In this document: positions 5,253 to 18,901 of the stretch, piece after piece
Numbering within the stretch: the first letter of the stretch is position 1
Layout of the letters: each line of letters starts with the position of its first letter
Assembly: GCF_030867385.1 (NCBI RefSeq)
Contig: NZ_JAPFBJ010000002.1
Span: 473,001-537,000, forward strand
Origin: Sphingobium sp. DEHP117
Lineage (GTDB): Bacteria > Pseudomonadota > Alphaproteobacteria > Sphingomonadales > Sphingomonadaceae
Direction: 5' to 3'
Length of the DNA: 64,000 nucleotides
The notes under the pieces: generated by a model
The model's input: the letters and a program-made list of their open reading frames with translations, nothing else
What the model was told of the DNA's origin: nothing
Databases searched by the model: none
Made by a program: the position numbers and the translations under genes

Positions 5253-6901
<1,649 letters not shown>

Positions 6902-6981
6902 TTCCGTCTCCAGTGGGCTGCGCGCTCGATCGTCTTGGGTCCGACCGGCGCACCGTTCCAACAGTTCAGCACTGAGCGGCG

Positions 6982-7767
6982 ATGACCCTTCTTGACGCAT
7001 TCGTCAAGCCATGCGCCTATGCGCTTATGCGGGTAGAACAATATATGGGTGCGCGGGCTACACCTCTCAAGGCGCAGATTGAAAGCACGCTGGCGTGGTG
7101 GGCGCTGGCGGGTGTGGAGAGCGCCATCACGGATCAGCCGGTCAACTGGTTGACGCCGAAGCAGCCATCGCCGCGCGCTGCTCAGACACGCGTATTGCCC
7201 GGCGATACGGGTTTTCCCGATAGGCTAGATGATTTTCACGCCTATCTGGCTCAAGCGCAAACCCTGCCTGAAGGCTCATGGCCCGGCCCGCGCATCATGC
7301 CGGCAGGGCCGCCTGCTCCGAGCCTGATGATCCTGGTCCACGCGCCAGACGCACTTGCGACGAAGCATGGCGCGCCGTTGGAAGGGGCAGGGATGAGCCT
7401 GTTGGCGCGCCTGCTCCGCGCCGTGGGACTCGAGCCGACTGACTGCTATTTTGCGACCCTCAGCCTGGTCACCCCGCCTGGCGGGATGATTGACGGCGCT
7501 GTAGTGGAAAGCCTTGTCGCACGCATGCGTCACCACATCGGTCTGGTCGCGCCCAAATCGCTAATGCTCATCGGCGATCAGGCGAACCGTGCTCTCCGTC
7601 CGACCGGCGGTCTTGATACAAGCGGAAATTTACTTTTTGTTAACCATTCGGGCGGCATGGTTCCCGCGGTCGCGATTGCGCATCCCCGGCTTATGCAGGG
7701 GCAGCCGATGGCAAAGGCGGAAGCGTGGCGGCTGTTGCGGGAACTGGTCAAAGGTTGGGGACAGTGA
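6982..7767 (+). CDS. Uracil-DNA glycosylase superfamily protein
   Basis: A 261-residue protein resembling the uracil-DNA-glycosylase fold as found in sphingomonads. The central strand LMILVHAP, the KSLMLIGDQA strand and the late AHPRLM histidine loop fit the superfamily, but the usual GEAPG loop of family 4 enzymes is degenerate, so activity on uracil is not assured. The start is uncertain: ATG 6982, 7030 or 7048 are all possible and none has a strong ribosome site. It is divergent from ETF-QO and its stop overlaps the next gene as GTGA. Confidence 0.65.
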   Translation: MTLLDAFVKPCAYALMRVEQYMGARATPLKAQIESTLAWWALAGVESAITDQPVNWLTPKQPSPRAAQTRVLPGDTGFPDRLDDFHAYLAQAQTLPEGSWPGPRIMPAGPPAPSLMILVHAPDALATKHGAPLEGAGMSLLARLLRAVGLEPTDCYFATLSLVTPPGGMIDGAVVESLVARMRHHIGLVAPKSLMLIGDQANRALRPTGGLDTSGNLLFVNHSGGMVPAVAIAHPRLMQGQPMAKAEAWRLLRELVKGWGQ

Positions 7768-9503
7768 GAGCATCATTTGTGGCTTTAATGGCGGCTGCGC
7801 TGGTGGCGCAGGCCGGAGTTGCGCGTGCGGAGCCCACGCTTGTCGCGCCGGTCGGTGCTGCAGATGCCCAGAACGCGGTCGCGCCCCTTTCCCAGCAAGA
7901 CACCTATCGCGCTGTGTTCGCCGCGCTGCGTGCCGGCAACTGGGCCGAAGCGAAGACGCGCATCGCCTCGCTGGACAAGGACGATCCGGTGCGCGCGGTT
8001 GCGTTGGCCGAGTTATATACCGCCAAAAATTCCCCCCGCGCCGAGTTGTTCGACCTGCTGGCCCTGATCAATACAGCCAATTGGTTGCCCGAATCGAACC
8101 AGCTTGCGCGTATGGCGAAGAAGCGCGGTGCGGATATCCTACCGGACGGGCCGCAGGTGCAGAAACTGATGTGGCTCGGCGCGGCACCCAAGCGGCAATA
8201 TACGCCCACCGTCAAGCAGGACGCGGCGGCGCAGGCGCTGGTCGCCCAGATCCAGCCCTATATCAAGGCGGATACTCCCGGTGCGGGCGAAGCGCTGATC
8301 ACGCCGGAGATCGAAACCACGCTGACCGTGGACGGCCTCGCCGAAGCGCGGCAGCGGCTCGCCTGGGCTTATTATATCGGCAACGACGACAGTAACGCCC
8401 TGCGCCTCGCGGCGCGGGCGCTGGAGACCGGCTCCACCGGAGACTGGGCGGTGCAGGCGCACTGGACCATTGGCCTCTCCAACTGGCGCGCCAATGATCC
8501 GCGCACGGCGGCAGCCGCTTTCGAGCGCGTCGGCGCCATGGCCAAGAATGACGATATGCGCGCGGCAGGGCATTATTGGGCTGCCCGTGCATGGATGAAC
8601 GCCGGCCAGCCCGCCAAGGTGAGCGCGCTCCTAAGGCGCGCCGCCGAGCGGTCCGACACCTTCTATGGCATGCTCGCGCGCGAGACGCTGGGGCTGGAGG
8701 CGCCGCAGGCCGCCATCAACCCCATGCGCTCGACCGCGATCATGGACAAGCCCGCCGTCCGTGCCGCGCTCTCGCTGCACGAGATCGGGGAAAACGAGTT
8801 TGCGGATGCCCTGCTGCGCCATCAGGCGGCGCTCGGCACCGTACGCGATTATGATTCGCTACTCGCGCTGACGGATACGCTCGATCTGCCTGCCACCCAG
8901 ATCTGGCTGGCACAGCATGGCCCGGCGGGGCACAATGGGGGCAGTTTCGGACGCTTTCCACGGCCAAGCTGGGCGCCGGAAGGCGGATGGCGCATTCACC
9001 CTGCGCTGGTGTTCGCCCACGCGCTCCAGGAATCCGGTTTCCGTACCGATGCCGTCAGCCCGGCGGGCGCGCGCGGCCTGATGCAGGTGATGCCCGGCAC
9101 GGCGCGGCTGGTGGCGGGCGATGCCGTCAGCGCGGCCCGGCTTTCCAATCCTGCCGTCAACATGGAATATGGCCAGCGCTATCTTGAGCAGCTGCGCGAT
9201 ATGAAGGCGACGGGTGGACTGCTGCCCAAGGTGATGGCGGCGTACAATGCCGGACCGGCTCCGGTCGAGCGGTGGAACAGCCAGGTGCGCGACAATGGCG
9301 ATCCGCTGTTGTTCATGGAGTCGCTGCCTTATTACGAGACCCGCGCGTACGTAAACATCGTGATGCGCAACTACTGGATGTACGACCTGCGCGAGACCGG
9401 CAAGGCAGACGCGCTCACCGCGATGGCGCAAGGGCGCTGGCCCGCTTTCCCCACCCTCAAGAACGGTAAGCCGGTCGAGCTTAGCTACCGGATCAATCGC
9501 TGA
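7764..9503 (+). CDS. Soluble lytic murein transglycosylase, exported
   Basis: A 579-residue Slt70-type enzyme that cleaves peptidoglycan glycan strands in the periplasm. It has a signal peptide (ASFVALMAAALVAQAGVARA), a long helical superhelix of repeats, and a C-terminal SLT lysozyme-like domain in which QESGF supplies catalytic Glu423, followed by GLMQVMPGTA and MAAYNAGP. The start is GTG 7764, overlapping the previous stop as GTGA; an in-frame extension upstream would put 13 residues before the signal peptide and is unlikely. A role in flagellar wall passage is possible but not shown. Confidence 0.93.
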   Translation: MRASFVALMAAALVAQAGVARAEPTLVAPVGAADAQNAVAPLSQQDTYRAVFAALRAGNWAEAKTRIASLDKDDPVRAVALAELYTAKNSPRAELFDLLALINTANWLPESNQLARMAKKRGADILPDGPQVQKLMWLGAAPKRQYTPTVKQDAAAQALVAQIQPYIKADTPGAGEALITPEIETTLTVDGLAEARQRLAWAYYIGNDDSNALRLAARALETGSTGDWAVQAHWTIGLSNWRANDPRTAAAAFERVGAMAKNDDMRAAGHYWAARAWMNAGQPAKVSALLRRAAERSDTFYGMLARETLGLEAPQAAINPMRSTAIMDKPAVRAALSLHEIGENEFADALLRHQAALGTVRDYDSLLALTDTLDLPATQIWLAQHGPAGHNGGSFGRFPRPSWAPEGGWRIHPALVFAHALQESGFRTDAVSPAGARGLMQVMPGTARLVAGDAVSAARLSNPAVNMEYGQRYLEQLRDMKATGGLLPKVMAAYNAGPAPVERWNSQVRDNGDPLLFMESLPYYETRAYVNIVMRNYWMYDLRETGKADALTAMAQGRWPAFPTLKNGKPVELSYRINR

Positions 9504-9505
9504 TC

Positions 9506-10033
9506 ATGCCGATCGACGAGAATGCTGTGTTCCTGCCGGTGCGTATCGCGCTGATGACGATATCCGACACGCGCGGGCTGCACGATGATCTATCAGGTGA
9601 TGCGCTGGTCGAGCGCATCCACGACGCCGGGCATGAACTTGCCGCCCGCGTGATCGAAACCGACGATGTCGAGCGCATCGTCGAGCGATTGCAGGAGTGG
9701 ATCGAGGACCCGCAGGTCGATTGTATCATCACCACAGGCGGAACCGGCGTCACCGGGCGGGATGTCACGCCCGAGGCGCTTGCAAAGGTGGCGGACAAGG
9801 ATATTCCCGGGTTCGGCGAGCTGTTTCGCCTGATCAGTTTCCAGAAGATCGGCAGCTCGACCATCCAGTCCCGCGCGTGCGCCTGCGTCGCCAGCGGCAC
9901 TTATATCTTCGCTTTGCCGGGTAGCCCCGGCGCGGTGAAGGACGGGTGGGACGGCATTCTCATTACCCAGCTCGACAGCCGGTTCAGGCCCTGCAACTTC
10001 GTGGAGCTGATGCCCCGGTTGAAGGAACGATAG
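9506..10033 (+). CDS. moaB: Molybdenum cofactor biosynthesis protein B
   Basis: MoaB/MogA-family protein of 175 aa that adenylylates molybdopterin before metal insertion. The hallmark TTGGTGVTGRDVTPEA lies near residue 77, and the later LPGSPGAVKDGWDGI and ALMTISDTR segments also match. The ATG follows the transglycosylase stop by two bases, so the two are probably co-transcribed. No other moa or moe genes are in the window. Confidence 0.93.
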   Translation: MPIDENAVFLPVRIALMTISDTRGLHDDLSGDALVERIHDAGHELAARVIETDDVERIVERLQEWIEDPQVDCIITTGGTGVTGRDVTPEALAKVADKDIPGFGELFRLISFQKIGSSTIQSRACACVASGTYIFALPGSPGAVKDGWDGILITQLDSRFRPCNFVELMPRLKER

Positions 10034-10044
10034 GCAGGGCCGGT

Positions 10045-10392
10045 TCAACCCGAGGCCAGCCCCTCCATGATCAGGCGGTTGACCTCAATAAGGTCAGACA
10101 AGGCGGCGCGTCCGGCGATGATCTCGCTGCTGTGCCTGTCTACCCATAGAGACAGCGAGATGATGCTCGCGCGCAATGGTGCGGGTAGGCGGTTGCCGCC
10201 ATCGGCGCAGGTCGCCCCGAAGGTAGCCCAGATCTCGCGGTTCCAGTGGATCACGTCCACGAGCGCCGCACCCTTCAAGGCGGCGCGCTCCGCCTCGATC
10301 AGCGCGCCCGTCACCTGCCCCAGCAGGCGATGCTCTGCGCTGCGCGGTGCTTCCGAAAAACTGCGCGCGCGTTGATAGGCGGATAGGCCCAT
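10045..10392 (-). CDS. flaF: Flagellar biosynthesis regulator FlaF
   Basis: A 115-residue alphaproteobacterial FlaF protein, which in Caulobacter and relatives works against FlbT to promote flagellin translation. Matching features are YQRAR at the N-terminus, IHWNREIWATFGATC in the middle, and the ASIISLSLWVDRHS helix. AGGAG lies just upstream of the ATG. It stands alone here, without flbT or flagellin, and is transcribed away from the motA–che block, sharing the 186-base divergent intergenic region with it. Confidence 0.88.
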   Translation of the reverse strand: MGLSAYQRARSFSEAPRSAEHRLLGQVTGALIEAERAALKGAALVDVIHWNREIWATFGATCADGGNRLPAPLRASIISLSLWVDRHSSEIIAGRAALSDLIEVNRLIMEGLASG

Positions 10393-10433
10393 ATCGTCTC
10401 CTGGCGCGCCCGTGTGCGCGTTCCACCCTTATT

Positions 10434-10447
10434 ATAGCGTGCGCTAT
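10434..10447. promoter_or_regulatory. Candidate operator: inverted repeat ATAGCG-TG-CGCTAT
   Basis: A perfect 6-base inverted repeat with a 2-base centre lies between the divergent flaF and motA genes. On the flaF strand a TATAAT-like hexamer overlaps its edge. The arrangement would suit a repressor or activator site controlling one or both motility transcripts. This is inference from symmetry and position only; no family consensus is recognised. Confidence 0.3.
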
Positions 10448-10578
10448 CGACGCGCGCGAAGGGCGGGGCCAATTCCGGCAACATGGTAAACATTCTGGTG
10501 AGGTGCCGCCCGGCCCGCGCCTGCCCGTCCTATAATTCCCGATAAGCAGTGTCTTACTCGTGAGGGACGAACCTTGTC

Positions 10579-11463
10579 ATGCTGAACGGCGTAGGCTTCA
10601 TCATCATTCTTGTCTGCGTGTTCGGCAGCTTCGTGATGGCGGGCGGCAAGATGGACATCATCCTGCATGCCCTGCCACATGAAATGATGGCGATCGGGGG
10701 CGCGGCAGTCGGCGCGTTCATCGTCTCCAACGACATGCATACGGTGAAGCTGGCCGGCAAGGGTCTGGCGCGCAGCTTCAAGGGATCGCGCTGGAAGGAA
10801 AGCGATTATCTTGACCTTCTCACCCTGCTGTTCCAGCTGCTGACGCTGTTTCGCAAGGATGGCGCCACCGCGCTGGAGCCGCACCTCGACAACCCGCATG
10901 AGAGCAGCCTGTTCTCGCGCTTTCCCGGCATCGTCGCCGACCACCATCTGGTGGAGTTCATCTGCGACTATCTGCGCATGATGACGGTCAACTTTGAGGA
11001 TCCAAACCAGATGGCTGAGGCGATGGAGGCGGATATTGACCGCCATCATCACGAGGAAGCTGAGCCGCAGCACGCATTGCAGACCATGGCGGACGGCCTG
11101 CCCGCGATCGGCATCGTTGCGGCGGTCCTGGGCGTCATCAAGACCATGGGGTCTATCGACCAGCCGGTGGAGATACTGGGCAGCATGATCGGCGGCGCGC
11201 TGGTGGGCACCTTCATGGGTGTGTTGCTCAGCTACTGCGTCGTTGGCCCGCTCGCCTCCAAGCTCAACCAGACCATCGAGGCGGACTCCAAGCCCTACAT
11301 TTTGGCCAAGACCGCGATCGTCGGATACGCCCAGAGCCTGCCTGTACAGGTCGCCGTCGAGATCGCGCGGCGCATGACGCCGTCAGCCATGGCCCCGACA
11401 TTCCAGCAACTCGAAACCGCACTAGACGAGGCGAAAAATGGACTCACCCCACAAGCTGCTTGA
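10579..11463 (+). CDS. motA: Flagellar motor stator protein MotA
   Basis: Integral membrane stator subunit (294 aa) that, with MotB, conducts protons to drive flagellar rotation. Four hydrophobic segments are visible, two at the N-terminus (GVGFIIILVCVFGSFVMAG and EMMAIGGAAVGAFIV) and two after residue 170 (LPAIGIVAAVLGVIKTMG and IGGALVGTFMGVLLSYCVV). The large cytoplasmic loop lies between. It begins a plus-strand block whose last genes include motB, so the chemotaxis genes are nested between the two stator genes. Confidence 0.95.
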   Translation: MLNGVGFIIILVCVFGSFVMAGGKMDIILHALPHEMMAIGGAAVGAFIVSNDMHTVKLAGKGLARSFKGSRWKESDYLDLLTLLFQLLTLFRKDGATALEPHLDNPHESSLFSRFPGIVADHHLVEFICDYLRMMTVNFEDPNQMAEAMEADIDRHHHEEAEPQHALQTMADGLPAIGIVAAVLGVIKTMGSIDQPVEILGSMIGGALVGTFMGVLLSYCVVGPLASKLNQTIEADSKPYILAKTAIVGYAQSLPVQVAVEIARRMTPSAMAPTFQQLETALDEAKNGLTPQAA

Positions 11464-11779
11464 TGGCCCAATGGATGGGCTGGAGGCTGATGGCCGCCTG
11501 CGCCTGCCGCCCAATGTGACCACGCTCATGGCGGAGGATCTGCGCGCCGGGCTTGTGCTCGCCGCCGATCATGAGGCCGCGATCCTGATCGACGCATCCG
11601 AGACCATCAGCATCGGTCAGGCCGCGCTGCAACTGCTGATCGCGGCGAAACTGGAGGCGGATCGCATGACCATCCCGTTCGAGATCGAGAACGCGCAGGA
11701 GCCGCTCGTCAAGCGGATCGAGGCATTGGGGCTGGCCGAAACGCTGGGCCTCACCGGCAAAGGGGAAGAAGTGCAATGA
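11438..11779 (+). CDS. STAS-domain protein of the chemotaxis operon (CheS/Orf2 position)
   Basis: A 113-residue STAS-fold protein (anti-sigma-antagonist type). Family pattern: alternating strand and helix with ILIDASETISIGQAALQLLIAA in the middle (the segment where a phosphorylatable Ser usually follows the Asp) and GLAETLGLTG at the end. It overlaps motA by 26 bases and the following cheY as ATGA. In rhizobial che operons a small STAS-like protein (Orf2/CheS) sits just upstream of cheY1 and binds CheA to speed CheY1 dephosphorylation; the same place here suggests, but does not prove, that role. Confidence 0.8.
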   Translation: MDSPHKLLDGPMDGLEADGRLRLPPNVTTLMAEDLRAGLVLAADHEAAILIDASETISIGQAALQLLIAAKLEADRMTIPFEIENAQEPLVKRIEALGLAETLGLTGKGEEVQ

Positions 11780-12141
11780 GCAAGCTCATTCTGACCGTGG
11801 ACGACAGCGCCAGCATGCGCATGCTCCTCAAGGTGTCACTCACCGCCCAGGGCTATGCCATCGAGGGGGCCGAAGACGGGTGCAAGGGCCTGGAGCGGAT
11901 GAAGGAGCTCGATCCCGATCTCCTCATCACAGATATCAACATGCCGCACATGGATGGGTTCGAGCTGATCGAGGCGGTGCGGGCACTGCCCGAATTTCGC
12001 GGCACGCCTATCCTCGTGCTCTCCACCGAGTTTTCTGACGAGAAGAAATCCCGCGCCCGCAATGCAGGGGCCACGGGCTGGATCACCAAGCCCTTTGACG
12101 CGGAGAAACTGGGAGCGGCGATCCGCCGGGTATGCCCATGA
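11776..12141 (+). CDS. cheY: Chemotaxis response regulator CheY (first copy)
   Basis: A single receiver domain of 121 aa with no output domain. The acidic pair Asp9/Asp10, phospho-acceptor Asp53 (LLITDINMPHMDG), Thr84 and Lys105 (ITKPF) are all in place, so it should accept phosphate from CheA. The ATG overlaps the STAS gene stop. By analogy with two-CheY alphaproteobacterial systems, this copy may act as a phosphate sink or as a second motor-binding regulator; the sequence does not decide which. Confidence 0.93.
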   Translation: MSKLILTVDDSASMRMLLKVSLTAQGYAIEGAEDGCKGLERMKELDPDLLITDINMPHMDGFELIEAVRALPEFRGTPILVLSTEFSDEKKSRARNAGATGWITKPFDAEKLGAAIRRVCP

Positions 12142-14336
12142 GCGAGGACAAGGAACTGGACGAGATTCAGGCGATCTTCTTCGAGGAGTGCGTCGAGGGT
12201 CTGGGCACTGCCGAGGCAGGGCTGACCGCCTTCGCCAATGGTGACATCTCGGCCGAGGTAATCGCGGGCGTGTTTCGCGCGGTCCATTCGATCAAGGGCG
12301 GAGCAGGGGCGTTTGGGCACAATGCGCTGCTCACTTTCGCCCATGCGTTCGAGAATGTGCTGGATCGGGTGCGCGCCGGAGACATCGCGGCGACGGCGGA
12401 GATCGGCCAGCAATTGCTCAGCGCGTTCGATACGCTGTCTGACCATGTATCTGCCGCAATGGGACGGGCGGATGTGCCGCAGGATGGAGTCGCGCTCGCC
12501 GGGCTGAACGCGCTGCTGGCGGGAGAGGCGCCGGTGGCCGCCCCGACGCCTTCTCCAGCAACACCGGAGCCTTCCTCGCAGCCAGCAGAGCCAGACGAAA
12601 CGGGTTTCGTGCCCGTCGCCGTGGCGTTGGATTTGGAGGATTTCGATGCGCCCGAAGTCCTAGCGCCAGAGGCAAACAGCGATGATCACCCCTGGCGCAT
12701 CGCCTTCGCGCCCTCGCGCGCCGCCATGGCGAACGGGGCCGAGCCGCTGCTGGTGATACGCGAGCTGGAGCGCATGGGCGCTCGTGTGACCCATGCGGAC
12801 CTCGTCAAGCTGCCGCCCCTGCGAGAGCTGGAACCGGAGCAAGGCTATATTCGCTGGGAATTGCTGCTCGATGGATCGGTCGAACAGCAGGAGCTGGACG
12901 AATGCTTCGATTTTGTAGCGCCCGATAGCTTCATCGAATATCGCCGGGAGGGCGCAACCATTGCCACCGCAAACGAGCCGGAGCCGATTGTTGCATCAGA
13001 GGCAGAAGCGGTAACCGCCGCCGACCTGTCCGGGACGGACGAGGAGGATACACCGCCAGTTTCCGCACCGCCGGTGCTGTTGATCGTGCCCCCCTCGCCA
13101 CCACCCGCAACACCGCCGGGCGATGCCAAGGTGCTCGATGCCGCTTCCCAGACCATCCGTATCGATGTGACCCGGCTCGACATGCTGCTCAACCTGGTGG
13201 GTGAGCTGGTGATCCGCAATTCGATTCTCAATGATCGTCTTGCGGCGGAGGATCAAGAGCGGGTCGAGCTGCCGCAACTGGCGCGCCTCACGCGCGAGAT
13301 TCAGGATAATGTCATGTCGCTGCGCGCCCAGCCGATCCGGCAGGCGTTCAGCCGCGTGCCGCGCATCGTGCGTGAGCTGTGCGCCGCTACCGCCAAACAG
13401 GTGAATCTGGAGGTGCAGGGCGAGGGCACCGAAGTCGACAAGAGCGTCATCGAGAAGATCGGCGAGCCGCTGACCCATATGATCCGCAACGCCATAGACC
13501 ACGGTCTCGAAAGCGCGGAGGAGCGGATTGCGGCGGGCAAGGACCCGGTCGGTACCGTGCGCCTCTCCGCCGAGCAGAAGGGCGCGCGCATTGTCATCCG
13601 CGTGGCGGACGACGGGCGCGGCATCGACCGTGAGCGGGTGCGCAACAAGGCAATCGAGAAGGGCATCGTCGCAGCCGACACGCCATTGACCGATGAAGAC
13701 ATCGACAATCTCATCTGCGCGCCCGGCTTTTCCACGGCGGAGACCATTTCCAACATATCCGGCCGTGGCGTCGGCATGGATGTTGTGCGCACCAACGTCG
13801 AGGCCTTGGGCGGGCGCATCGAGATCAGCTCCACGCCCGGCCAGGGCACGAGCTTCACGATGGTGCTGCCGCTTACGCTCGCGATCCTCGATGGCATGAT
13901 CGTGCGTATCGATGGCCAGCGCTATGTCGTGCCGCTCGCCCATGTGGTGGAATCGATCCGCCCCGATCCGGGTCAGGTGAAGGCGCTTTCGCCCACATCG
14001 GAGGTCATCGACCTGCGCGGCAGTTATGTGCCGGTGCGGCGGGTAAGCGACATCTTCGGCCTATATGGTCACGAACGGCGCAGCCCGGAGGAGAGCCTCG
14101 TCATCATCGCGGAAAGTGACATGGCGGGCTGCATAGGCCTGATGGTGGACACGATAGACGACCGGCGCGAGCTGGTGGTGAAGAGCCTCGACCAAAACCT
14201 CTACCCGATCACCGGGCTTTCGGGCGCCACCATCCTTGGCGATGGCTCGATCGCTCTCATTCTCGACATCGATGCGCTCGTTTCGGCCGCCAATTCTTCG
14301 GGCGCGCGTTTTACCCTGAAAGGAATGGCAGCATGA
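12138..14336 (+). CDS. cheA: Chemotaxis histidine kinase CheA
   Basis: A 732-residue sensor kinase. Domains in order: N-terminal HPt with phospho-accepting His50 (VHSIKGGAGAFG), an acidic and proline-rich linker with P2-like segment (about 135-330), dimerisation helices (IRIDVTRLDMLLNLVGEL, about 345), ATP-binding domain with HMIRNAIDHGLES and GRGVGMDVV, and a C-terminal CheW-like domain. I chose ATG 12138, which overlaps the cheY stop as ATGA; ATG 12132 two codons earlier is equally in frame. It phosphorylates the two CheY proteins and CheB. Confidence 0.95.
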   Translation: MSEDKELDEIQAIFFEECVEGLGTAEAGLTAFANGDISAEVIAGVFRAVHSIKGGAGAFGHNALLTFAHAFENVLDRVRAGDIAATAEIGQQLLSAFDTLSDHVSAAMGRADVPQDGVALAGLNALLAGEAPVAAPTPSPATPEPSSQPAEPDETGFVPVAVALDLEDFDAPEVLAPEANSDDHPWRIAFAPSRAAMANGAEPLLVIRELERMGARVTHADLVKLPPLRELEPEQGYIRWELLLDGSVEQQELDECFDFVAPDSFIEYRREGATIATANEPEPIVASEAEAVTAADLSGTDEEDTPPVSAPPVLLIVPPSPPPATPPGDAKVLDAASQTIRIDVTRLDMLLNLVGELVIRNSILNDRLAAEDQERVELPQLARLTREIQDNVMSLRAQPIRQAFSRVPRIVRELCAATAKQVNLEVQGEGTEVDKSVIEKIGEPLTHMIRNAIDHGLESAEERIAAGKDPVGTVRLSAEQKGARIVIRVADDGRGIDRERVRNKAIEKGIVAADTPLTDEDIDNLICAPGFSTAETISNISGRGVGMDVVRTNVEALGGRIEISSTPGQGTSFTMVLPLTLAILDGMIVRIDGQRYVVPLAHVVESIRPDPGQVKALSPTSEVIDLRGSYVPVRRVSDIFGLYGHERRSPEESLVIIAESDMAGCIGLMVDTIDDRRELVVKSLDQNLYPITGLSGATILGDGSIALILDIDALVSAANSSGARFTLKGMAA

Positions 14337-14848
14337 CCGAGTTGACCGAAGCCGAGGCGCCCGCAGCGCAGGACATGAAGATCGTCACCTTCACCCTGTG
14401 CGGCCACATGTTCGGCATCGCGATGACAGCGCTGCTCGAAATCCGCGAGTGGGAGGAACCGACACCCCTGCCCGGCGTGCCGCATTATGTGCGCGGCGTG
14501 ACGAATTTGCGCGGCAATGTCGTTCCGGTGGTCGGCCTGTCCGAGCGGCTGGGCTGGCCGCCGAGCGAGACGCATGCGCGCTCGTGCATCCTCGTCGTCA
14601 ATCTCGACGGCAAGCAGGCGGGCTTTCTGGTCGACGAGATGAACGACATCGTGACCGTGAACATGGCGGAAATTCAGCCACCCCCCGCTCTGGACGGCGC
14701 GGACACCAGCATGATCGCGGGCCTTGTGCGCGTGGTAGACAGGGGGAGTGACGAGAACGAAACCGGCCGATCGGGCAATAACGCCATGGTGCTGCTGATC
14801 GACGTGCCGGCCTTGAGCCTCACCCGCCATCTGGACGCCGCCGCATGA
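14333..14848 (+). CDS. cheW: Chemotaxis coupling protein CheW
   Basis: A 171-residue CheW that links CheA to chemoreceptors in the array. It has the usual SH3-like layout: FTLCGHMFGIAMTALLEIRE at the N-terminus, then the signature GVTNLRGNVVPVVGL near residue 58, and a strand with LVDEMNDIVTV. A loop of about 15 residues rich in charged residues (DRGSDENETGRSG) near the C-terminus is longer than in enteric CheW. ATGA overlaps join it to cheA before and cheR after. Confidence 0.93.
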   Translation: MTELTEAEAPAAQDMKIVTFTLCGHMFGIAMTALLEIREWEEPTPLPGVPHYVRGVTNLRGNVVPVVGLSERLGWPPSETHARSCILVVNLDGKQAGFLVDEMNDIVTVNMAEIQPPPALDGADTSMIAGLVRVVDRGSDENETGRSGNNAMVLLIDVPALSLTRHLDAAA

Positions 14849-15711
14849 ACCAGCTTACCCCTCTCGATCGTGACCTATGGGGCGGGGCGGCACTCACCGA
14901 TGCCGAGTTCCGCGAGATCGCGGCGATGCTGCATCAGGAGTCGCGGATCACGCTCGCCCCGCAAAAGGCGACGCTGGTGCGCTCGCGCCTGTCGCGCCGG
15001 CTGCGCGAGCAGGGGCTGAAGAGCTTTTCCGACTACATCGCGCTCGTGCGACGTGACATCGGCGAACGGCGCCAGATGATCGAGCTACTCACCACAAATC
15101 ACACACATTTCTTCCGTGAGGTTCATCATTTCAACCATCTGAGGAACGAGATGATGCCGATCTGGCGCGGCCGCAACGCGCGGGAGCCGTTGCGTATCTG
15201 GTCCGCCGCGAGTTCGTCTGGCGAAGAGGTCTATACGATCGCCATGACCCTGCTGGGGCAGGATCTGCGCGAGGCTCAGTGGGCGCGCACCGCCGGCGTC
15301 CAGCTCTTCGCCACAGACATTTCGGACGAGATGGTGAAGGCTGTGCGCAACGCGGAATATCCCAAGGGGCATCTGGAGCAGGTTCCCCAGCCCTGGCGCA
15401 AGCTGTGGACGAAGGAGACGCGCGACGGCTTCGCCATCGCGCCCGAGGCGCGCAACCTCGTCACCGCGTCTCAGCTCAACCTGTTCGAACGCTGGCCCTG
15501 GCGCCACCCGTTCGAGGCGATCTTCTGCCGCAACGTCATGATCTATTTCAACGAGGAGGCGAAGGCGGAACTCGAGATGCGCCTCGTCAACCAGCTCGTG
15601 CCAGGCGGCGCGCTCTACATCGGCCATAGCGAGCGGCTGGTGAGCAAGGCCAAGGATTTCATGATCCCCTGCGGCCACACCATGTATCGCAAGCCGGAGA
15701 CCGTGCGGTGA
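14845..15711 (+). CDS. cheR: Chemoreceptor methyltransferase CheR
   Basis: SAM-dependent enzyme (288 aa) that methylates receptor glutamates for adaptation. An N-terminal helical domain holds LVRSRLSRRLREQG, and THFFREVHHF marks the substrate side. The Rossmann domain carries the SAM-binding RIWSAASSSGEEVYTIAM near residue 117 and FATDIS. The late FCRNVMIYF motif is diagnostic for CheR. The start overlaps cheW as ATGA and the stop overlaps the GTG start of cheB. Confidence 0.95.
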   Translation: MNQLTPLDRDLWGGAALTDAEFREIAAMLHQESRITLAPQKATLVRSRLSRRLREQGLKSFSDYIALVRRDIGERRQMIELLTTNHTHFFREVHHFNHLRNEMMPIWRGRNAREPLRIWSAASSSGEEVYTIAMTLLGQDLREAQWARTAGVQLFATDISDEMVKAVRNAEYPKGHLEQVPQPWRKLWTKETRDGFAIAPEARNLVTASQLNLFERWPWRHPFEAIFCRNVMIYFNEEAKAELEMRLVNQLVPGGALYIGHSERLVSKAKDFMIPCGHTMYRKPETVR

Positions 15712-16766
15712 GAGAGAATATTCCCGTTGGAGAACGCACGCGCGTGCTGATCGTGGATGATAGCGCATCCATGCGCGCTATCCTCAAGAAGATTCTTCAG
15801 TCTGACCCGCGCATCGACGTGGTCGGCGCGGCGGCGGATGCCGAGATCGCGCGACGCCTGCTGAAAGATTTGAACCCGGACGTGCTGCTGCTCGATGTCG
15901 AAATGCCGGGAATAGACGGCATCACCTTCCTTGAGAAGATCATGCGCCTGCGCCCCATGCCGGTGGTGATGTGCTCGTCGCTTACCGCCAAGGGTACAGA
16001 GACGACGATTGAGGCGATGCGGCTGGGCGCAGTCGAGTGCATCGGCAAGCCAGCGGGCGGCCCCGAGGCGCTGATGCGCGAGGCCAAGCTGTTGCGCGAA
16101 ACCGTGAAGGCGGCCGCGCGCTCTACCATGCGGCCGATCAGCCATGCTGTGCCGCGCGGAGCTGTGCCGTCGGGCGGGTGCGACCCGGAGCTGGTGATCG
16201 CCATCGGTGCATCCACTGGTGGGGTGGAAGCGCTGTTCGCGCTGCTCTCCGCCCTGCCGCCCGATATTCCGCCCACTTTGGTGGTGCAGCATATGCCCGG
16301 CATGTTCACCAAGGGCTTTGCCGCCCGGCTCGATCGCTCCTGTCCGATGCGGGTGACAGAAGCGCGAGACGGGGAAAGGTTGCAGGCCGGTACCGTCTAT
16401 ATCGCCCCCGGCTCCGAAGCTCATATGGAGCTCTCTGGCGGGCGGCAGGGCCATCTGCGCCTGCGGCCCACAGCCCCCGTTTCTGGTCATCGCCCGAGTG
16501 CGGACGTTTTGTTCAAGAGCTGCGCACCGCTGGGGAAGAAGGCAATCGGCGTCATCATGACCGGCATGGGCAAGGATGGCGCGCAAGGCCTGCACGCCAT
16601 GCGCAAGGCCGGCGCGCTGACCCTGGGCCAGGATGAGAACAGCTGCGTCATCTACGGCATGCCGCGCGCGGCGAAGCTGCTCGGCGCTGTGACCCGCGAG
16701 GTGAGCCTCGATACGCTGCCCAAGGCGCTGTTACGTGCCTGCCGTGAACCTATGGGGGTACACTGA
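15708..16766 (+). CDS. cheB: Chemoreceptor methylesterase/deamidase CheB
   Basis: Response regulator of 352 aa with an N-terminal receiver (Asp63 in LLDVEMPGIDG) and a C-terminal methylesterase. The catalytic triad is visible as Ser169 (IGASTGG), His195 (VQHMPG) and Asp290 (GMGKDGA). CheA phosphorylation is expected to activate it to remove methyl groups added by CheR. The start is GTG 15708, overlapping the cheR stop as GTGA. Confidence 0.95.
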   Translation: MRENIPVGERTRVLIVDDSASMRAILKKILQSDPRIDVVGAAADAEIARRLLKDLNPDVLLLDVEMPGIDGITFLEKIMRLRPMPVVMCSSLTAKGTETTIEAMRLGAVECIGKPAGGPEALMREAKLLRETVKAAARSTMRPISHAVPRGAVPSGGCDPELVIAIGASTGGVEALFALLSALPPDIPPTLVVQHMPGMFTKGFAARLDRSCPMRVTEARDGERLQAGTVYIAPGSEAHMELSGGRQGHLRLRPTAPVSGHRPSADVLFKSCAPLGKKAIGVIMTGMGKDGAQGLHAMRKAGALTLGQDENSCVIYGMPRAAKLLGAVTREVSLDTLPKALLRACREPMGVH

Positions 16767-16767
16767 C

Positions 16768-17157
16768 ATGCCTGCCGCATCCGCAATCAAGGTGATGGTG
16801 GTTGATGACCAGACGAGCATGCGCGCGATGATCCGCCGCACGCTTCAGGATCTCGGCTTTCGCGATGTTCGCGACAAACCGTCGGCACTGGAGGCCTTGC
16901 CTGCCGTGCAGAACGACCGGGTTCACCTCATCATCTCGGACTACAACATGCCCGATATGGACGGGCTGGAGTTTCTGAAGGCCGTGCGCGCCGATCCTGT
17001 CATCGGCAAAACCGTGTTCATCATGCTGACCGGCAGCTCGGAAAAATCGGTGGTGCAGAAGGCGGCAGAGCTCGGGGTCAACAACTATGTCGTAAAGCCC
17101 TTTGCGCCTGCCGCGCTCAAGGAGAAGATCGAGCGGGTCTTCGGGGAGCTGAGCTGA
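16768..17157 (+). CDS. cheY: Chemotaxis response regulator CheY (second copy)
   Basis: A 129-residue receiver protein with Asp13/Asp14, phospho-acceptor Asp58 (IISDYNMPDMDG), Thr in MLTGSS and the conserved Lys in VVKPF. Its sequence (MVVDDQTSMRAMIRRTLQDLG) is closer to the motor-binding CheY type than the first copy, so it is the better candidate for the FliM-binding regulator. The start at ATG 16768 is one base after the cheB stop with GGGGG upstream; the open frame before it overlaps cheB. The stop overlaps the cheD start as TGATG. Confidence 0.93.
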   Translation: MPAASAIKVMVVDDQTSMRAMIRRTLQDLGFRDVRDKPSALEALPAVQNDRVHLIISDYNMPDMDGLEFLKAVRADPVIGKTVFIMLTGSSEKSVVQKAAELGVNNYVVKPFAPAALKEKIERVFGELS

Positions 17158-17696
17158 TGAAGCCCCCCTCGAAGCGCATTGCGATCATCCAGGGGGAGAG
17201 CGCGGTGGTGAGCGAGCCGGACACGGTCATCGCAACGCTGCTCGGATCATGCATCGCCGTGTGCCTGCATGATCCGATTGCGCACATCGGCGGCATGAAC
17301 CACTTCCTGCTCGGTGAGCCGGGGCGCGGGCAGACGGTCGCCGCGGCAGACATGGCCCGCTACGGCCTGCACGCGATGGAGCTACTGATCAACGCGATGA
17401 TGCAAAAGGGCGCATCGCGGCTCCGCCTCTCGGCGCAGGTGTTCGGCGGCGGCAATATTCAGGCGGCGTTCGGGCCGATCGGCACCAGGAATGCCGAGTT
17501 TGCACTTCGCTTCCTGAAGACCGAGGGCATTCCCGTTACCCAGACGAATGTCGGCGGCACCCAGGCGCGTAAGGTGGAATTTCGCGCATGGGATGGGATC
17601 GCCTCCTGCGCCCTGGTTGCGCAGGCGCCACCTCTGCGCCCCATTGCGCCATATCGCCCGCCCTCGGCGTCCAGCGATGTCGAGCTGTTCGCCTGA
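17157..17696 (+). CDS. cheD: Chemoreceptor glutamine deamidase CheD
   Basis: A 179-residue cysteine-type amidase that converts receptor glutamines to glutamates. Catalytic Cys32 (LLGSCIAVCLHDP) and His49 (GGMNHFLLGEPG) are present, as are QVFGGGNIQ and the late GGTQARKVEF segment. It overlaps cheY by one base (TGATG). The C-terminal about 25 residues are proline-rich and beyond the usual domain end. The order cheR–cheB–cheY–cheD matches rhizobial che operons. Confidence 0.92.
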   Translation: MKPPSKRIAIIQGESAVVSEPDTVIATLLGSCIAVCLHDPIAHIGGMNHFLLGEPGRGQTVAAADMARYGLHAMELLINAMMQKGASRLRLSAQVFGGGNIQAAFGPIGTRNAEFALRFLKTEGIPVTQTNVGGTQARKVEFRAWDGIASCALVAQAPPLRPIAPYRPPSASSDVELFA

Positions 17697-17736: not shown

Positions 17737-18027
17737 ATGGCCTTTCACCCTTCCGTCTACCCGCTCTGCACTGCCATGGCGAACGAGTGGCGCGAAATGC
17801 GGCATCATCTCGAACAGCTGGCGGCGCGGCTGTGCGTCGACGCCTCCTTCGCCGCCCTGCATCTGGACAGCCTGCAGCTGTTCGATGCGCTCGCCCAGCA
17901 GGCGGATGAAAGCGCGGTCATGCTCGACAGGCTCTCGGAAGGCATGTGCTCGTCAGACGCGCTCGCGCTCGTGCGGCTGGATATGATGCAGCAGCGGCTA
18001 CGCGATGCGCTCGGCGAGATGACCTGA
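17737..18027 (+). CDS. Small helical protein after cheD; candidate CheT/CheZ-like phosphatase
   Basis: A 96-residue, all-helical-looking protein of unrecognised family lying between cheD and motB. It reads as two amphipathic helices (about 10-32 and 36-68) and a C-terminal helix 74-94. That last helix contains RLDMMQQRLRDALGEM, in which Asp82 and Gln86 form the DxxxQ spacing used by CheZ-type phosphatases. A second DxxxQ (Asp50/Gln54) lies in DALAQ. In rhizobial operons the gene after cheD is cheT, a small phosphatase with a DxxxQ motif. Role here is inferred from position and motif only. Confidence 0.6.
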   Translation: MAFHPSVYPLCTAMANEWREMRHHLEQLAARLCVDASFAALHLDSLQLFDALAQQADESAVMLDRLSEGMCSSDALALVRLDMMQQRLRDALGEMT

Positions 18028-18034
18028 TCCCGCC

Positions 18035-18901
18035 ATGGCAGCTTCAGACAAGCAGGAGGCGCCGGTCGTCATCCGCCGCGTCAAGAAGGTGGTGGGCGGC
18101 GGCCATCATGGCGGCGCATGGAAAGTGGCCTACGCCGACTTCGTGACCGCGATGATGGCGTTCTTCATGCTGCTCTGGCTGATTTCGAACCCGGACAAGG
18201 AAAAGCTGAAAGGCCTGGCCGAATATTTCACGCCTGGCCCGCCGAGCGCGCCGCAGGCGACCGGTACTACTTCCGGCCCGAGCGATACGCCAGGCACCGG
18301 TGGGCACACCCAGCGTAACCAATCCGACAGCCGAAGTCCCAGCGGCATTCCGGCGATGACCGCCGCCAGCCCCGGCGTCGCGCGCGGCGGCAGCGCCGAT
18401 GTGCCGAGCGCGGCGTTGCGTGTATTGGCGCAGGAGCTGAAGGTCGCGCTTGACGCCGTGCCGCAGGACCATGCCGCGCCTACCAGCTTCATGACCGACA
18501 TGGGGCGGGACGAACTGCGCGTCAGCCTCACGGATACAGACCGGCAATCGATGTTTCAGGGCAGCAGCGCCAACCTCAACGCCTATGGCCGCAATGTGCT
18601 GGCGCGGGTCGCCGCAAAAATGAAAGACGTCAAGGTGAACGTCGCGGTCGAAGGGCATACCGATGGTGCGGGCGGCAATTCGGATGCCAACTGGCAGCTT
18701 TCCGGCGCGCGGGCGCTGGCAGCGCGTAACGCGCTGATCGCCAGCGGCGTGGCGGCGGATCGTTTCACGCAGGTGGTGGCGATGGCCGCCACCCGGCCCG
18801 TTTACCCCGATCAGCCCGATCGCCCCGAAAATCGGCGCATCACCATCGTGTTGCTCGCCGACAAATCCGCGCTGCCGGGTGACAGCGGTTTCGCGTTCTG
18901 A
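18035..18901 (+). CDS. motB: Flagellar motor stator protein MotB
   Basis: A 288-residue peptidoglycan-anchored stator subunit. After a basic N-terminus comes a single membrane helix with the proton-binding Asp35 (WKVAYADFVTAMMAFFMLL). A Pro/Gly/Thr-rich periplasmic linker spans about 65-125, and the C-terminal OmpA-like domain contains VAVEGHTDGAGG and DRPENRRITI. The small helical gene precedes it by seven bases and a FliL-like gene follows after three. It pairs with motA at the other end of the block. Confidence 0.94.
   Translation: MAASDKQEAPVVIRRVKKVVGGGHHGGAWKVAYADFVTAMMAFFMLLWLISNPDKEKLKGLAEYFTPGPPSAPQATGTTSGPSDTPGTGGHTQRNQSDSRSPSGIPAMTAASPGVARGGSADVPSAALRVLAQELKVALDAVPQDHAAPTSFMTDMGRDELRVSLTDTDRQSMFQGSSANLNAYGRNVLARVAAKMKDVKVNVAVEGHTDGAGGNSDANWQLSGARALAARNALIASGVAADRFTQVVAMAATRPVYPDQPDRPENRRITIVLLADKSALPGDSGFAF

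Follow-up and report, generated by a model that had tools for sequence, protein, structure and literature searches.

A 96-residue open reading frame between cheD and motB of Sphingobium sp. DEHP117 as a candidate short CheT-like CheY phosphatase

We analyzed a 64,000-nucleotide stretch of Sphingobium sp. DEHP117 (GCF_030867385.1, NZ_JAPFBJ010000002.1, positions 473,001-537,000 of the forward strand; hereafter the window), in which an open reading frame (ORF) for a 96-residue protein lies in a block of chemotaxis (che) and motility (mot) genes. Its conservation and predicted structure indicated that this protein is quite probably a divergent, short, CheT-like phosphatase of CheY that would act in a CheZ-like manner with Asp50 and Gln54 as its active site, an estimate that leaves the choice of substrate aside. 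An earlier note on this DNA had described a 96-residue helical protein after cheD with two DxxxQ motifs; the ORF is indeed present, translates as given and is predicted to be helical, and the motifs were found at residues 50-54 and 82-86. The features of the block are as follows.

17737..18027, + strand: CheT-like ORF, 96 residues, ATG start (ORF, homologues, AlphaFold model)
17872..17901, + strand: codons 46-55, LQxxDxxxQ signature; Gln47/Asp50/Gln54 of helix 2 as the predicted active site (conservation in homologues and rhizobial loci)
17980..17994, + strand: codons 82-86, the motif proposed in the earlier note, where the last helix begins; not conserved (alignments, model)
10579..11463, + strand: motA, upstream of the STAS gene (MotA_N and MotA_ExbB)
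11438..11779, + strand: STAS-domain protein directly before cheY1, a possible CheS (Pfam STAS_2, E 1.4e-5, under the curated cut-off, 25.7 vs 29.2 bits)
11776..12141, + strand: cheY1, receiver, possible substrate (Pfam Response_reg)
12132..14336, + strand: cheA (Hpt, H-kinase_dim, HATPase_c, CheW)
14333..14848, + strand: cheW (domain search)
14845..15711, + strand: cheR (domain search)
15708..16766, + strand: cheB (domain search)
16735..17157, + strand: cheY2, the receiver closest to motor-type CheY (Pfam Response_reg; best solved relative CheY2 1p6q, E 4e-30)
17157..17696, + strand: cheD, directly upstream of the 96-residue ORF, product ending SSDVELFA (Pfam CheD, E 2.3e-24)
18035..18901, + strand: motB, directly downstream of the 96-residue ORF (MotB_plug and OmpA)

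The order of the block is motA, STAS protein, cheY1, cheA, cheW, cheR, cheB, cheY2, cheD, the 96-residue ORF and motB, with 7 bases between the stop of the ORF and motB. With the NCBIfam CheY model, CheY2 scored 109 bits and CheY1 69 bits, both below the cut-off of that model. Rhizobial che operons share the order cheY1-cheA-cheW-cheR-cheB-cheY2-cheD-ORF, and cheT of Sinorhizobium meliloti and the Rhizobiaceae, like the 96-residue ORF, follows cheD in an operon with two cheY genes. For rhizobial clusters of the same class, passages of one paper list an additional cheY, cheS, cheD and cheT (PMC8429497).

Shuffling the 96-residue protein 20,000 times produced one or more DxxxQ in 41% of cases and two or more in 7.5%, so that the presence of such a motif alone is weak evidence. 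The two motifs are told apart by conservation alone. Twenty-one homologues were collected by sequence or profile search and each was aligned pairwise to the 96-residue protein without a motif filter (two of them, L016 and L018, share one genome, and L025 comes from the genome of the window). Gln47, Asp50 and Gln54 were kept in 21 of 21 homologues, as was Asp35. At the second motif, Asp82 was kept in 4, Gln86 in 1 and both together in 1 of the 21, with three alignments stopping short of these positions; the relatives have E, T, D, N or S at position 82 and D, H, T, E, N, Q, V or S at position 86. In the MAFFT alignment A2 (21 rows) and in A5 (25 rows, including five rhizobial CheT and two members from the family labelled f29, and covering the Rhizobiaceae and the families f1, f29 and f46), the only invariant columns were Gln47, Asp50 and Gln54. 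The rows of A2 and A5, unlike the pairwise counts, were excised with the motif pattern (23 loci entered, one row from each), and A2 omits L013 on account of its truncated frame. The pair Asp82/Gln86 occurred in two of the 25 rows of A5, that of the 96-residue protein included.

The earlier note had proposed Asp82 and Gln86 on the last helix as the catalytic pair and had called for their invariance among homologues to be checked; that check came out against its choice. The 96-residue protein has the DxxxQ spelling there and both residues fall within a predicted helix, which is what speaks for this pair, but the counts given above and the position of Asp82 as the opening residue of its helix make it a very improbable active site. 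Asp50/Gln54, which the note gave second, is the invariant motif and the likely active site.

The AlphaFold model of the protein, made with A2, had a mean predicted local distance difference test (pLDDT) score of 95.2 and a predicted template modelling score of 0.82. Helices were predicted at residues 5-32, 36-41, 43-67, 72-77 and 82-95, forming a helical hairpin and a short helix, and placed Asp50 and Gln54 on the long second helix (43-67). From heptads read by eye in the sequence, Leu46, Phe49, Ala53, Ala60 and Leu63 would line the core side of this helix, with Gln47, Asp50 and Gln54 beside the core on one face. The model of a rhizobial CheT was less good (pLDDT 76) and had a similar helix order (21-47, 53-82 and 92-110); both proteins combine a helical hairpin and a C-terminal helix with Q-x-x-D-x-x-x-Q on helix 2.

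The distribution of the ORF was examined in genome draws for the family, order and class, which overlap one another and each include the genome of the window. By single-sequence search, 16 of the 149 genomes drawn for the family (Sphingomonadaceae) and 6 of the 147 drawn for the order contained the ORF. At class level, a profile search recovered it from 4 of 385 genomes, with a second copy in the genome of the window. Thirty CheD loci of the family were then read. In ten of these, the window's included, cheD directly follows cheY2 (type A), and the next ORF after cheD carries the signature in 10 of 10, although L114 has a truncated CheT-like frame and the ORF of L134 was recognised by position and motif only. 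The truncated frame, at L114/L013 of genome G099, ends soon after the motif and is perhaps a decaying or frame-shifted copy; motA sits just before cheY2 there. Of the remaining 20 CheD loci, 19 have another layout (the second type), in which cheB-cheD-cheY-cheW is in most cases preceded by cheR and followed by a second cheB. A CheT-like ORF lay inside the stretch read in 5 of these 20 loci and beyond it, after the second cheB, in three further genomes (G075, G076 and G000). Five stretches read around CheT-like genes had been picked because such a gene was already known there.

The genome of the window contains a second che cluster of this kind (L145, G000:C2:1045000-1064000, about 6358-17123, minus strand), with cheA, cheR, cheB, cheD, a CheY1-type cheY, cheW, a second cheB and its own CheT-like gene (LQRLDEMGQ). 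The products of two genes upstream of its cheA end in DDWSEF, a receptor-type pentapeptide, and, read without a family search, look like chemoreceptors. In genome G419, which belongs to a different family of alphaproteobacteria (f36), the signature also appears, as LQDFDLMSQ, in an ORF immediately following cheD (L153), whose product ends in DDQDEIW.

The sphingomonad ORF family was also compared with rhizobial CheT. Among 80 Rhizobiaceae loci retrieved with S. meliloti CheY2, in which cheD was recognised by pattern in 75 ORFs, the ORF at the cheT position after cheD carries QGxDLxVQ, the same QxxDxxxQ, in 80 of 80. Profile-profile comparison of A2 with A3, an alignment of 16 of the 80 rhizobial CheT sequences, detected similarity with a probability of 94.6% and an expect value (E) of 7.3e-8 over 81 columns, and paired Asp50 with Asp64 and Gln54 with Gln68 (LQGIDLAVQ of rhizobial CheT). 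On a rerun the real comparison gave E 4.2e-7, against 0.0033 for the best of 200 column shuffles, 0.0018 for the best of 200 seven-column block shuffles and 0.2 for the reversed alignment. Masking the three motif residues left E at 1.8e-4. The link stands well above the decoys yet depends heavily on the motif region.

Several results weigh against assigning the protein to the CheT kind. When residues 46-55 were masked on both sides, the profile link fell to E 0.0018, equal to the best block-shuffle decoy, so that the motif and its surroundings account for much of the signal. Searches with Foldseek and VIA-align were uninformative on the fold, with generic helical arrangements and no significant match, and the helical hairpin is a common shape. 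The 96-residue protein did not match the NCBI CheT model NF047973.1 (cut-off 200 bits) in a search of its own genome at E up to 10. This model was nonetheless the family matched by most members, 4 of 21 weakly at E up to 10 with a best E of 0.0013; as a positive control, all 16 rhizobial CheT rows matched it at E up to 0.01, S. medicae (L030) with 205 bits. Rhizobial CheT, of about 130 residues rather than 96, is thus matched by the curated model and the sphingomonad protein is not. The 96-residue protein also lacks the C-terminal GDFxxF-like tail, which was present in 76 of 80 rhizobial CheT and in none of the 21 rows of A2, and which may define CheT or bind CheR; a further difference is the second copy in the second che cluster. 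The family named in the earlier note was largely right in kind, and the motif it chose was wrong; the protein lies outside the NCBI CheT model as drawn.

According to passages of PMC12654446, CheT of S. meliloti has a DXXXQ motif and a CheZ-like predicted structure, speeds the dephosphorylation of one CheY but not of the other, and forms a complex with CheR. The complex with CheR leaves room for a reading in which the 96-residue protein is a CheT homologue by descent whose role is that of an adaptor binding partners such as CheR, CheD or CheA, and whose Gln/Asp/Gln face docks a receiver without catalysis. The invariance of Gln47, equal to that of Asp50 and Gln54, fits an adaptor as well. For CheZ catalysis, an Asp at position i and a Gln at i+4 suffice, with no need for a counterpart of Gln47. 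This very spacing is kept by the conserved pair in 21 of 21 homologues, and the tail that may suit CheR docking is missing from every A2 row, so that a non-catalytic adaptor appears unlikely. The passages of PMC12654446 already mention CheT homologues outside rhizobia, in Caulobacter, and do not name sphingomonads, and no paper on a sphingomonad CheT was found by title among the matches listed in our literature search.

Like CheZ, the 96-residue protein has a helical hairpin and a helix that carries Asp and Gln at i/i+4 spacing, and it would be expected to dephosphorylate a receiver. Two sphingomonad CheZ proteins that were read have 228 and 222 residues, so that the 96-residue protein is under half that length. 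Profile comparison with a CheZ alignment of two rows showed no similarity (probability 0.7%), and rhizobial CheT showed none either. What the protein would share with CheZ is the mechanism; no sequence relation was detected. The genome of the window gave no CheZ (PF04344) match at E up to 0.001, and a control with this model matched in E. coli but also in B. subtilis. CheZ exceeded the Pfam cut-off in 4 of 149 family genomes (L138-L141) and in none of the 16 with the ORF, a difference that is not significant at these numbers. In one of these four, G007, the CheD locus (L135) has no CheT-like ORF within the stretch read. A CheD-like gene was present in 28 of 149 family genomes, and because 27 of the 28 show no CheZ match, it is not obvious how the CheY signal is terminated there.

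Catalysis, the choice of CheY1 and an effect on swimming are what we infer for the proposed phosphatase. On the second helix of the all-helical protein, Asp50 and Gln54 would be exposed at a distance of one turn, with Gln47 alongside. In CheZ, the Gln positions the attacking water and the Asp contacts the active-site Lys of the receiver; Asp50 and Gln54 would speed the dephosphorylation of a CheY receiver in the same style. With CheY1 as its substrate, the protein would empty a phosphate sink and so contribute to ending the signal to the motor.

The evidence on which CheY is the substrate is indirect and mixed, and modestly favours the CheY1-type receiver at 11776-12141. In four second-type clusters chosen for carrying a CheT-like gene (own genome, G014, G093 and G075), the CheY is 61-65% identical to CheY1 of the window, and no CheY2 was detected in these four. 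In accord with this, S. meliloti CheT reportedly acts on CheY1-P and not on CheY2-P. The two relatives from the f29 family (L024 and L026) weigh against CheY1, as the CheY beside their CheT-like gene is 39% and 37% identical to CheY2 and 28% and 28% identical to CheY1. The same phosphatase may instead act on the motor receiver CheY2 and replace CheZ directly, a variant that we regard as possible but doubtful; L024 and L026 raised our estimate for it slightly. The placement of the gene right after cheY2-cheD in type-A loci and the non-significant CheZ count given above also point toward CheY2, but both the CheY1-type receivers of the four second-type clusters and the specificity attributed to S. 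meliloti CheT speak against it.

A conserved tail was also observed in CheD, which ends in SSDVELFA in the window; VELF occurs in 20 of 27 pattern-found sphingomonad ORFs (L108-L137) and [IV]EFF in 75 of 75 pattern-found rhizobial ORFs (L028-L107). Rhizobial CheT and chemoreceptors have similar tails, and nothing on the CheD tail appeared among the matches listed in the literature search, as judged by the listing and by passages of two papers.

Taken as a CheT-like phosphatase, the 96-residue protein is a promising candidate for ending the CheY signal; it goes unrecognised by the curated Pfam and NCBIfam models, and conservation points to two residues for mutation. CheT, characterised in one rhizobium, would thereby be extended to a family whose only invariant alignment residues are the proposed active site, and the phosphatase core would be set apart from the tail, a possible link between CheT and CheR. 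More tentatively, minimal receiver phosphatases might form a wider family in alphaproteobacteria, with CheT as one of its branches and with members in both motility and second-type che clusters; in this family, rhizobial CheT would be tethered to CheR via a receptor-like pentapeptide, while sphingomonad CheT would lack the tether and CheD would keep a related VELF tail, so that signal ending and adaptation might be linked through CheD.
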